Shown: positions 35,093-39,645 of the stretch, one piece after another | Layout: every line of letters starts with the position of its first letter | How positions within the stretch are numbered: the stretch's first letter is position 1 | DNA from: an uncultured Lachnospiraceae bacterium | GTDB lineage: Bacteria; Bacillota; Clostridia; Lachnospirales; Lachnospiraceae | Assembly: GCA_947630025.1 (NCBI GenBank) | Contig: CANRFZ010000002.1 | Coordinates: forward strand, 124,001 to 188,000 | Direction: 5' to 3' | Length of the DNA stretch: 64,000 bases | Program-made: the position numbers and the translations under genes | The notes under the pieces: model-generated | The model's input: only the letters and a program-made list of their open reading frames with translations | Database searches by the model: none | What the model was told of the DNA's origin: nothing

Positions 35093-35131
35093 CGTGTAAA
35101 AAATCACATTGATGTGCTGATTTTTCACACG
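35093..35131 (+). promoter_or_regulatory. 14-nt inverted repeat in leader of RloA-like gene
   Basis: CGTGTAAAAAATCA...TGATTTTTCACACG (one mismatch), with overlapping CACAT-TG-ATGTG. Confidence 0.7.
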
Positions 35132-35146
35132 AGAATGGAGATTGCT

Positions 35147-36373
35147 ATGTTAAGTCAATTTACTGTGAAAAACTACAAAAGCATCCGTGATGAGATTACG
35201 TTTGATATGCAGGCGGCAGCTATTTCGGAGCATAACGACAAAATTATGAAAGATGAGAACGGAGAATTGTTTCTGCCCGTAGCGGCCATCTATGGGCCGA
35301 ACGGCGGCGGAAAATCTAATGTACTGGAAGCGATTCACACATTGACATCTAAAGTTCTGCGTCCTCTTTGTGCAGCCTGCGATAAGAGCGACTGCGCATA
35401 CAAGGCTAAGAAAATTCCTGTAGAACCGTTTGCTTTTACAGAAGAAAACAGAAATATGCCTACAGAGTTTGAAATTTACTTTCGGACACAGGCGGCAGAG
35501 TATCGTTATATTCTTCATATTAAAAGAGAAACCGTGCTTTATGAAAGCCTTGACAGAGTGAAAATGGAGACAGGAAGGCGCTCTGCGTTGTTTGTTCGTG
35601 AAAGAGGCAAAATAGATTTGAAAGGTACGTTCGCCAAATTTAAGATTAGTGAAGATTTGTCGGAAACGCTGCCATTATTGTCATATCTCGGAATTACTTA
35701 TAAAAAGAACGAAATAGTGAGTGATGTGCTGAATTGGTTTGAAGAATCCATAGACTTTTTAAATTATGGAAATCCTTATCAGGAAATAAGAACAGCTATA
35801 GCAAAATCCGATAAAATCAAAGAATTAGTGCTGAAAATGATCCGGGAAATGGACTTGGATATTGAAGATTTCCGCGTTGAGGAAAAGGACGAGGATACGA
35901 TAGAGGTTTATACGAAGCACATTGTAAATGGAGAGAGTACGGAACTTACGCTATCCGAGGAGTCCAGCGGAACGAAAAAATTATTTGGACTTTTGCCTTA
36001 TATTGTGAGCAGCTTAATTTGCGGAACCACATTGGTCATTGACGAGCTGGACGCAAAAATTCATCCCTTATTATTGAAACACATTATTGAAATGTATACG
36101 GATATGAAAGTGAATAAGAAAAAGGGGCAGTTGATTTTTACCTCTCATGACTTATCAACCATGAACAATGAGGTTTATCGAAGGGATGAAATCTGGTTTG
36201 TGGCAAAGGGGAGGGATCAAAACACCAAGTTATACTCATTGGTAGAGTTTAAAGATAACAATGGTATGTCAATCCGCAAAGATGCAAAATACGATAAACA
36301 GTATCTCGAAGGAAAATACGGCGCTGATCCATATCTGCAAAGAATTATAGATTGGGGGAAAGTCAATGCCTAA
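35147..36373 (+). CDS. AAA/ABC-type ATPase, RloA/AbiLi-like putative defence ATPase
   Basis: LSQFTVKNYKSIRDEITFDM, Walker A GPNGGGKSN, SSGTKKLF, Walker B TTLVIDELDAKIHPLL; SD GGAG before ATG. Confidence 0.85.
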   Translation: MLSQFTVKNYKSIRDEITFDMQAAAISEHNDKIMKDENGELFLPVAAIYGPNGGGKSNVLEAIHTLTSKVLRPLCAACDKSDCAYKAKKIPVEPFAFTEENRNMPTEFEIYFRTQAAEYRYILHIKRETVLYESLDRVKMETGRRSALFVRERGKIDLKGTFAKFKISEDLSETLPLLSYLGITYKKNEIVSDVLNWFEESIDFLNYGNPYQEIRTAIAKSDKIKELVLKMIREMDLDIEDFRVEEKDEDTIEVYTKHIVNGESTELTLSEESSGTKKLFGLLPYIVSSLICGTTLVIDELDAKIHPLLLKHIIEMYTDMKVNKKKGQLIFTSHDLSTMNNEVYRRDEIWFVAKGRDQNTKLYSLVEFKDNNGMSIRKDAKYDKQYLEGKYGADPYLQRIIDWGKVNA

Positions 36374-37064
36374 AAAAGCCGGTATGGAAAAATGGAAGAA
36401 AGAGCGTCGGCAGCAGTATTTGGAACTCAAAGAGTACCGCTATTACATCTTTTGTGAAGGGGAACAAACAGAGCCCCAGTATTTTGCAGGATTTAAGCGG
36501 CTGATTGAGAACAATCCTATCTACAAAGATATGGTACTGATCGAGATCGAGCCTTGTGCTGCGGAAACCATGCGCGTCATGGGAATGGCGGAAAGATATG
36601 TCAAAGAGCACAACATACAAAAAGGGCAAATCTGGTGTGTGTATGATAAGGACAGCTTTCCGGCAGAACATTTTAACGGTGTCGTGGAACGAGCTGACTT
36701 GTTAAATAAAGATCACTCAGAATTACAATATCATGCGGCATGGAGTAATGAATGTATCGAGTTTTGGTTTATACTTCATTTTGCTTATTATACTGCCAAT
36801 AACCGCCGAACAGGGTACATAGATTTTTTAAACAATACGTTTCAGGAACTGGGACTGGGAAAATATCAGAAGAATATGCCAAACCTTTTTGAAATACTAA
36901 CGGAAAAAGGCAATCCAAAGCTGGCGATACGCTACGCCCGACGAATTATCAAAGATGGACGAGACAGAACGCCGGCGGAAATTGCGCCGGGCACAAAAGT
37001 GTATGAGTTGGTGGAGGAACTGGCGAAGTATTTGCCGGAAGACATGAAAATCCATTTCTTATAG
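36366..37064 (+). CDS. RloB-like protein (AbiLii-like)
   Basis: YYIFCEGEQTEPQYFAGFKRLI, WCVYDKDSF, WSNECIEFWFILHF; overlaps the ATPase gene by 8 bp. Confidence 0.82.
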   Translation: MPKKAGMEKWKKERRQQYLELKEYRYYIFCEGEQTEPQYFAGFKRLIENNPIYKDMVLIEIEPCAAETMRVMGMAERYVKEHNIQKGQIWCVYDKDSFPAEHFNGVVERADLLNKDHSELQYHAAWSNECIEFWFILHFAYYTANNRRTGYIDFLNNTFQELGLGKYQKNMPNLFEILTEKGNPKLAIRYARRIIKDGRDRTPAEIAPGTKVYELVEELAKYLPEDMKIHFL

Positions 37065-37120: not shown

Positions 37121-37151
37121 AGAAAAAAACAAACGAAAATGCCTTTGGCAT
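37121..37151 (-). terminator. Terminator after LanC-like gene
   Basis: Minus strand ATGCC-AAA-GGCAT followed by TTTCGTTTGTTTTTTT. Confidence 0.55.
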
Positions 37152-37152
37152 C

Positions 37153-38550
37153 CTACAGGCTGAGATCCGTCGGATAGGGATCGTCGATATAGCGGATAAA
37201 GTGAATCTCCTTTTTCCGAAACTGGTACATCTGTAATAGCGCCGCGGCAATACCGGCGGAACCGGTCGCATAGCCAAAATCCGGCGCGACGTTTTCCGGC
37301 TTGATGCGTTCGTATGCAATCGGCCACACGCCGATGCGTCCGCCGAATTTATTCTCCTGCTCGCCCACCAAAATCTCAGCCGCCGTTTCAGCGGCCTCGG
37401 AAGCCTCCCTGCCAAAATCGGTTCCATAAAATACGATGCCGCAGTTGAGCAGGAACTGCAGTATGCCCGCGGTGCCGCAGCATACGCATACCGTATTCCA
37501 ATAACCCGCCGACATTTTTTCCGGCGCTCCCAAATGGCGCATCCCATAAAACAACCCTTTTATATCATTTAAGTACTGTTCCTCGTTCGTGATCCGGTAC
37601 AAGCCGTAAAACAACTTGCTCGTTCCTGCCGGGCCGTGACAGTTTGCAAGATAAAAAATCGGTTCTTCGCCGGGAACGTCATGCCATGGGATCAGGAAGC
37701 CGTCGCCTTGTCTGACGGAAATGGCTTTCAGATGTTTCGCCGCTTCAATAGCCGCCTGTCTGTAAGTTTCCTTTTGGGAATACCGGTATGCCACCGTCAG
37801 CGCATACCCTGTGCCCGCCGTCCCGCCTTCAAAGTTGGGGACGCGGTCCACATCGCCGTGCAGCGTACTGTGCCACGCATACCCGCCGCGGGGATCTGCG
37901 ATGGCATTGGCCACGATGCGGTCAGCCGCACGTTCCGCCGCCTCTTTTACCTTGTCATCCTGCAGAAAATCAGCGGCATGGTACAGATAGATCATCGTTC
38001 CGGCATCATGAAACATCGTGCAGTCCGCGCCCCAGTATAGGCCGTCTTGATCTTCTTTTGCGTTTGCGAGGATAAAGTCCGTAATCTCCCGAACGGCGTC
38101 TTTGTCCTTCTGCCGCTTCGTCAGACCGTAAATGGTGATCAATCCTTCTCCCGTGCTGGCTGCGCCGCAGTAATAATTGTAGATCGTGCCTAAGTCTTCA
38201 AAAATGCCATTTTCCCGCAGCATCGCGATCCCCGCTTCTCCCGCTTTTCTCCAGTTGGCGCCGATATAGTCCGCGGCCTTACGGATGATTTCCAGATAGT
38301 TCTCCTCTTTCGTCAACTGATAGAGTTCCATATAAAAGTACACAACGCCTGCAGATCCGGTATAAATCGCGCCGTTGCCGTCCTCTTTTCCCGGATGCGC
38401 CCAATAAATCCCATCCTTGTCCTCGATGCGCAGCGATTCCAGATAGTCATGCGCCTTCTTTGCGATTTCAATATATTCTTCTATGTTTTCCACCTTTTTG
38501 CGATTGTGCAGACCGCCAATGGTAAACGGATATTTTTGATTGATTTTCAT
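37153..38550 (-). CDS. LanC-like (lanthionine synthetase C-like) protein
   Basis: GSAGVVYFYMELYQL, CHGPAGTSKLFYGLY, CCGTAGILQFLLN, GSAGIAAALLQMY repeats with H/C ligand candidates; SD GGAGG before MKIN. Confidence 0.85.
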   Translation of the reverse strand: MKINQKYPFTIGGLHNRKKVENIEEYIEIAKKAHDYLESLRIEDKDGIYWAHPGKEDGNGAIYTGSAGVVYFYMELYQLTKEENYLEIIRKAADYIGANWRKAGEAGIAMLRENGIFEDLGTIYNYYCGAASTGEGLITIYGLTKRQKDKDAVREITDFILANAKEDQDGLYWGADCTMFHDAGTMIYLYHAADFLQDDKVKEAAERAADRIVANAIADPRGGYAWHSTLHGDVDRVPNFEGGTAGTGYALTVAYRYSQKETYRQAAIEAAKHLKAISVRQGDGFLIPWHDVPGEEPIFYLANCHGPAGTSKLFYGLYRITNEEQYLNDIKGLFYGMRHLGAPEKMSAGYWNTVCVCCGTAGILQFLLNCGIVFYGTDFGREASEAAETAAEILVGEQENKFGGRIGVWPIAYERIKPENVAPDFGYATGSAGIAAALLQMYQFRKKEIHFIRYIDDPYPTDLSL

Positions 38551-38564
38551 CGCGCTGCCTCCTG

Positions 38565-39551
38565 TCATTTTTTATATTTCTGATCGGTCATCGGTGTGGA
38601 AAGATACTTTAATACATCGTCGTAGCCAAGCGTAACGATTGTTTTCCCTCTGTATTCCGGCTTCGCAGCCAGTTCCGCCGCCAGATACATCGCGGCTCCC
38701 GCGGTGATCCCCAGAAAAATGCCGTCTGTCCGCGCCACTTTATTGGACATTCTGTAGGCGTCTTCTTTATCCACCTTGACGATCCTGTCATAAGGCGCTC
38801 TGTCTCTGCGGAGAATAATCTGCGGAAAGCTATGCCGCGGCGTCAGGCTGATACTGTGGACGCCGACCAGAGATTCGATATCGTCATCCGTCGGCTCAAA
38901 AGCGACCACTTCCAAATCGGGAAATTTCTCCCGCAGCGCTTCGCTTACGCCCGTGATCGATCCGCCGGAACCGACGCCCGCAATCAGCACATCGACATGA
39001 TCGACATCCTCAAGGATTTCCTGTCCGGTGGTACGGTACTGGATATCACGGTTTGCCTCATTTGCGGACTGCACCGTGAGGAAATAGCGGATGCCTTCTT
39101 CCGCGCTGCGCTTTTGGAACAGCTCGACCAATGCCTGCGCGGAATCTCCGTCTTCCGGCAGCGAGGACATCACTTCCATCACGCCCTCGTCCTGCGTCAT
39201 ATCCCGCACGGTTGCGCCGTATGCCTCCAAAAGCCTGACTCTCTCCTCCGTCGCCTGCACCATATAGGCAATCATCTTATAACCGCGCTTTAGGGCGATG
39301 GCGGCCAGACCGATGGCCGTGTTGCCGCTGGAAAATTCCACAATGGTATCTCCCGGCCGGATATCCGTATCACGCTCCAAGGCGTCGATCATCGCCATCG
39401 CGATACGGTCTTTTAACGAACCAAAAGGATTCAGGCTTTCCAGCTTTACTAAAATATGCGCGTCGATATTTTCCTGCTTTTCCAATCCGTCCAGCTCCAA
39501 AATCGGCGTATGCCCAATCACTTCTTCGATAGAATGTTTAATACGACTCAT
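38565..39551 (-). CDS. PLP-dependent cysteine synthase-like protein
   Basis: IGHTPILELDGL, KLESLNPFGSLKDR, SSGNTAIGLA, GVGSGGSITG. Confidence 0.9.
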   Translation of the reverse strand: MSRIKHSIEEVIGHTPILELDGLEKQENIDAHILVKLESLNPFGSLKDRIAMAMIDALERDTDIRPGDTIVEFSSGNTAIGLAAIALKRGYKMIAYMVQATEERVRLLEAYGATVRDMTQDEGVMEVMSSLPEDGDSAQALVELFQKRSAEEGIRYFLTVQSANEANRDIQYRTTGQEILEDVDHVDVLIAGVGSGGSITGVSEALREKFPDLEVVAFEPTDDDIESLVGVHSISLTPRHSFPQIILRRDRAPYDRIVKVDKEDAYRMSNKVARTDGIFLGITAGAAMYLAAELAAKPEYRGKTIVTLGYDDVLKYLSTPMTDQKYKK

Positions 39552-39592
39552 AACTGCTCTCCTTTTCCGAATTTATCTTTTCCTATTATTTT

Positions 39593-39645
39593 ATTCCTAG
39601 TAAACCTATGGGATTTATTATAATTATCAGGGCGAGCTTTGTCAA
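39593..39645 (-). promoter_or_regulatory. Consensus promoter and dyad upstream of the cysteine synthase-like/lanC-like operon
   Basis: TTGACA (39645-39640), 17 nt, TATAAT (39622-39617), imperfect dyad ATTCCTAGTAAACCTATGGGAT (39593-39614) at the predicted start site. Confidence 0.7.

Follow-up and report, generated by a model that had tools for sequence, protein, structure and literature searches.

What a LanC-like protein does next to a cysteine synthase-like enzyme is the question raised by a two-gene operon in an uncultured Lachnospiraceae bacterium. Known uses of LanC chemistry are the closing of rings in peptides and, in eukaryotes, the addition of glutathione to dehydroalanine and dehydrobutyrine (Dha/Dhb). 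An earlier note on this stretch of DNA (64,000 nucleotides, hereafter the window) had described a bicistron with a Shine-Dalgarno sequence in its gap and a terminator behind it, and we found both open reading frames on the minus strand as it had placed them. The first gene (38565–39551, minus strand) encodes a 328-residue divergent paralog of the cysteine synthases (CysK/CBS fold, PLP) and ends in a TGA at 38567-38565, and the second (37153–38550, minus strand), with its ATG at 38550 and its stop at 37153, encodes a stand-alone LanC-like protein of 465 residues. The 14 nt between them hold the Shine-Dalgarno sequence AGGAGG of the LanC-like gene (38558–38563, minus strand). An alternative in-frame ATG at 38568 overlaps the stop of the CysK-like gene; the start of the relatives (M-K-I) supports 38550 as the probable one. 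A promoter, TTGACA-17-TATAAT, that matches the sigma-70 consensus at 12 of 12 positions lies at 39617–39645 (minus strand), and a terminator-like hairpin follows the LanC-like gene at 37136–37154 (minus strand). The 21-nt palindrome CCCATAGGTTTACTAGGAATA (39592–39612, minus strand), a possible operator by its position directly 3' of the -10 element, was rejected as such since a genome-wide pattern search found it to be unique and without enrichment. Upstream lies a GGDEF gene, and downstream, convergent with the bicistron, an AAA_21 ATPase gene is followed by one for a RloB-domain protein (35114-37064), resembling a RloAB defence-type pair. Given these flanks, the window transcript probably carries just two genes; no sulfur genes stand beside it, and no precursor-like small ORF was seen upstream.

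The note's assignment of both products to families held. The LanC-like protein scores 79.6 bits with LANC_like (PF05147), whose cut-off is 23.2, and it aligns with LanM cyclase domains from the same bacterial family over residues 25-439 (hhalign probability 99.7%, E 3e-26). In sequence searches of the PDB, LanCL2 is the top match both for the single protein and for a profile of 21 members. With a curated cut-off exceeded and similarity to the alpha/alpha-toroid, the protein belongs to the LanC-like superfamily. AlphaFold2 gave a poor model from the single sequence (pLDDT 41) and one of pLDDT 60 when two relatives were added; among the Foldseek matches listed for the latter, human LanCL1 (8d0v) comes first by TM-score to the query (0.52), while by E-value LanCL structures are interleaved with GH76 and epimerase folds. 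We take this resemblance as weak backing for the fold only; around the ligand loops, confidence in the pLDDT-60 model is too low to resolve the zinc site.

The profile alignment is more telling about the active site. It pairs NCHGP of the LanC-like protein with WCHG of LanM, and CCG with CHG. The first zinc-ligand position, C304 (codon 37639–37641, minus strand; LanCL1 C276), is Cys in 25 of 25 relatives, and the second and third, C357-C358 (codons 37477–37482, minus strand; LanCL1 C322/H323), are likewise CC in 25 of 25. By alignment, all three zinc-ligand positions are therefore kept, as Cys-Cys-Cys, so that the ligand loss which the note had named as a refutation is not seen; CCG is the motif of ProcM-type LanMs (PMC10027976). 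Invariant besides the ligand cysteines are W351, W409 and R415, and H305, at the position of LanCL1 H277, is also Q, G or N in relatives. The catalytic acid His of the thia-Michael LanC and LanCL enzymes, in contrast, is gone: E241-G242 (NFEGG; codons 37825–37830, minus strand) pairs with LanM FSHG in hhalign, placing Gly242 where the His would stand, and the His is kept in 12 of 25 relatives. This residue (NisC H212, LanCL1 H219) is essential in NisC, SpaC, LctM, ProcM and LanCL1/2; without it, all LanC enzymes tested are impaired and the reverse reaction is lost (PMC9934072). With the ligand positions kept and the acid His replaced, zinc-thiolate chemistry seems likely for the window protein, and standard thiol addition to Dha/Dhb doubtful. 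As a separate observation, 10 of the 13 relatives that lack the His carry a Glu one residue before its position, so that this Glu (E241 in the window) is a possible replacement acid.

The partner matches PALP (PF00291) at 201 bits and falls under the cut-offs of the NCBIfam cysKM (249.8 against 344) and cysK (233.9 against 350.95) profiles; in score and in clade it lies outside the housekeeping CysKs. Its PLP lysine K47 (GSLKDR; codon 39411–39413, minus strand) is invariant in 18 partner proteins, as are S75-G76-N77-T78 and Q161, and the partner clade thus retains the PLP lysine and substrate loop of CysK (OASS). Housekeeping CysKs carry a GPHKIQGIGAGFVP segment that partner CysKs lack, so substrate choice probably differs between them. 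In a tree of 54 CysK-like proteins, 19 of the 20 LanC-adjacent members fall into one large group, apart from a housekeeping group that includes the second CysK copy of the window's own genome (G000:C25); label changes on the tree number 5, against 16.5 in shuffles, and none of 500 shuffles was as low. When the best-scoring CysK-like proteins of LanC-like-negative genomes were added, all of them joined either the housekeeping group or a sister group found next to NifB/NifD-like genes. Clades were assigned from the tree because scores by themselves do not tell partner CysKs and this sister clade apart (439.7 against 439.1 bits). Across 299 genomes of the window's family, the partner clade, which was defined after the LanC adjacency had been noticed, is present in 14, each of which also has a LanC-like gene, and in 0 of the 283 others (Fisher p 3e-22). 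The window's own subclade sits on a long branch and its exact placement is uncertain, and one nearly complete genome (G072) has a LanC-like gene and no partner-clade CysK. Independently of this, members of the sister group (L036, L053, L135, L140) adjoin NifB-like, ParA/NifH-like and NifD-like genes in an apparent nitrogenase-like cluster that has a CysK paralog of its own and might act as a reductase of C-S bonds.

The pairing is real and conserved, as is the bicistron itself. Profile matches occur in 22 of the 299 family genomes, 16 of them stand-alone LanC-like proteins of the window's type and the remainder LanM-like or fragments. Elsewhere the type is rare, with one more genome (G864) in the class sample and, outside the family, none in the order and phylum samples; two relatives at 89% identity come from Lachnospiraceae MAGs labelled Eisenbergiella and Roseburia. 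The note had proposed searching for recurrence of the pair, and it does recur: a CysK-like gene lies within 1.2 kb of the LanC-like gene in 20 of 30 loci, on the same strand in 19, and farther off in the same gene run in two more, with either gene order found. This, together with the dedicated clade and the co-occurrence, rules out chance adjacency. LanC-like genes reach four copies per genome (G182), and one locus (L042:7403-10318) has two in tandem beside one partner CysK-like and one cystathionine gamma-lyase gene. A decayed pair, with the gene order of the window, is seen at L056:8380-9150 (G061:C37), where ~180 N-terminal residues of a CysK-like product, 55% identical to that of the window, give way to the ~46 C-terminal residues of a LanC-like one in a different frame; a deletion seems to have removed both genes.

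The neighbours of these pairs, in relatives at 27-89% identity and not in the window itself, point to sulfur nutrition. They encode the C-S lyase PatB, cystathionine gamma-lyase, MetNIQ, cystine-type or other ABC importers, LysR regulators near CysB, NifS/NifU and, often, a short-chain dehydrogenase (SDR), which adjoins the pair in six loci and whose presence does not track with the acid His among relatives. In one locus (L100) the order is LysR - cystathionine gamma-lyase - PatB - LanC-like - CysK-like - NifS. A palindrome, TTATAR..YTATAA, stands 5' of 6 of 24 LanC-like operons against 4 of 117 others (p 0.002), and all four of the latter precede PatB or cystathionine gamma-lyase genes. It is similar to the methionine site of CmhR, TATAGTTTSAAACTATA (PMC5359408), and is absent from the window promoter. 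A looser CCTA..TAGG motif showed no clear enrichment (4/24 against 7/117), and riboswitch control was discarded after Rfam returned tRNA only in eight operon loci. In one further ORF of 548 residues (L034:2853-4499), a cystine-type amino-acid binding domain of family 3 is fused with a MetQ/NlpA lipoprotein domain, an unusual combination of two binding proteins for sulfur amino acids.

Taken together, the kept zinc-thiolate ligands, a dedicated aminoacrylate-forming enzyme and operons for import and lysis argue for C-S chemistry on small molecules. On balance we consider it probable that the bicistron encodes a module of one zinc and one PLP enzyme for forming or cleaving C-S bonds in organic sulfur assimilation, and not a lanthipeptide system. 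The LanC-like protein would bind the sulfur of a small thiol or thioether as a zinc thiolate through C304, C357 and C358, and a C-S bond would be made or broken there, most likely with a thiol freed or passed on from a scavenged compound. The CysK-like partner would turn O-acetylserine or a similar donor into an enzyme-bound aminoacrylate and attach the thiol, or else work in reverse on an S-substituted cysteine. To judge from the operon company, PatB and cystathionine gamma-lyase would then liberate sulfur for cysteine, methionine and NifS. We favour scavenging over thioether synthesis because importers and lyases recur in these loci and exporters do not. Counting against the module are the isolated position of the pair in the window, the long branch of its CysK-like subclade, the partnerless LanC-like gene of G072, the window promoter without the palindrome and the mixed Foldseek ranking; operon company, moreover, does not single out one reaction. 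More tentatively, the LanC-like protein may be a nutritional zinc thioether lyase or transferase of LanC fold that cleaves thioethers from the diet or the host, for instance through retro-thia-Michael elimination, with another acid/base, perhaps Glu241, and hands the thiol to the dedicated PLP enzyme; in some operons the SDR might first oxidise a beta-hydroxy thioether to a ketone. If so, it would be the first LanC-type enzyme of primary sulfur metabolism.

The same operons and the Cys3 zinc-type site could also be read in the opposite direction, with an amino acid made by the PLP enzyme and then alkylated on its thiol by the LanC-like zinc protein, so that the pair builds an S-substituted cysteine or a low-molecular-weight thiol of a special kind. 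The SDR genes at six loci and the probably altered substrate choice of partner CysKs lacking GPHKIQGIGAGFVP fit such a synthesis, but C-S lyases and importers within the same operons indicate breakdown, and no exporter, ligase or NRPS recurs in the loci; we regard it as rather unlikely. The earlier note had proposed repair or detoxification, with a small thiol being attached to dehydroalanine-type electrophiles in proteins or peptides; a LanCL-like role of this kind would extend to dehydrobutyrine and to free electrophiles. The note's second suggestion, that the pair makes an unusual sulfur or diamino acid, may yet hold. The fold, the zinc-ligand positions and H305 at the LanCL1 H277 position speak for repair, and relatives that retain the acid His leave it some chance, but the claim is not supported as it was put. 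The acid His, on which both LanC addition and the reverse reaction depend (PMC9934072), is replaced by Gly in the window protein, for which the case is weakest, and is absent in 13 of 25 relatives. H305, moreover, is variable, and the gene context is one of nutrient sulfur uptake and C-S lysis, so that repair appears unlikely.

Slightly less credible still is a non-catalytic LanC-like protein that serves the CysK-like enzyme as a sulfide or thiol carrier or as a regulatory partner. The dedicated pairing and the variable acid residue would suit it, and protein partners such as CysE are known for CysK enzymes; against it stand the invariance of the active-site-like W351, W409 and R415 in addition to the cysteines, the free gene order and the LanC-like gene of G072 without a partner-clade CysK. 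That the protein is an orphan lanthipeptide cyclase acting for a distant precursor and dehydratase, as its kinship with LanM cyclase domains might suggest, is very improbable: the window gene is the sole LANC_like match in a genome assembly estimated to be 82% complete, no precursor is seen nearby, and relatives sit in sulfur operons with no lanthipeptide genes seen among the neighbours of their loci. On these grounds we set a lanthipeptide locus aside; one was looked for elsewhere in this incomplete assembly and not found, and the note's doubt about a lantibiotic role is supported. Searches for LanB and LanM dehydratases (PF13575/PF04738) gave no match, but control genomes were equally silent, so these searches alone do not prove absence. 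Weak matches to GH88, GH76 and cellobiose epimerase raise the case of an alpha/alpha-toroid glycosidase or sugar epimerase mistaken for LanC, which we hold to be scarcely conceivable and reject on the Cys found at all three zinc-ligand positions in every member; the best scores, too, come from LanC profiles.

That a conserved bacterial subfamily is tied to a dedicated cysteine synthase paralog and to operons for sulfur uptake suggests that the LanC fold has a role in metabolism, and it provides a concrete setting in which to ask what stand-alone bacterial LanC-like proteins do. It may also indicate a sulfur source of anaerobic gut bacteria that is as yet undescribed. For genome mining, a LANC_like match beside PLP enzymes need not mean a lanthipeptide locus. 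A literature search that combined LanC-like proteins with cysteine synthase or with sulfur metabolism turned up no relevant work, and the pair apparently represents an undescribed LanC-like subfamily in a metabolic setting.

Among known systems, the Firmicute methionine/cysteine regulons (CmhR/CmbR type, PatB, MccB, MetNIQ) agree with these loci in neighbour genes and in a CmhR-like palindrome, TATAG..CTATA, but in the papers searched no LanC-like member of such regulons was found. LanC and LanM cyclase domains (NisC, ProcM-type CCG LanMs) are similar to the LanC-like protein from end to end in profile, and ProcM shares the three zinc-ligand positions with CCG as the third motif (PMC10027976); the LanC-like protein differs in standing alone, in its sulfur operons without a dehydratase or precursor seen, and in the absence of the acid His from the window protein and 13 of 25 relatives. 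Eukaryotic LanCL1 and LanCL2 are likewise stand-alone LanC folds, and C304-H305 of the window protein falls at the C276-H277 position, whereas its third ligand is Cys instead of the His of LanCL, its acid His is missing and its setting is a bacterial sulfur operon. The partner, in turn, differs from CysK (O-acetylserine sulfhydrylase) in its separate clade, in lacking the housekeeping GPHKIQGIGAGFVP and in scoring under the NCBIfam CysK cut-offs, while it is about 40% identical to its own genome's other CysK and keeps the PLP lysine, the SGNT loop and the Gly-rich loop that it shares with CysK and cystathionine beta-synthase.
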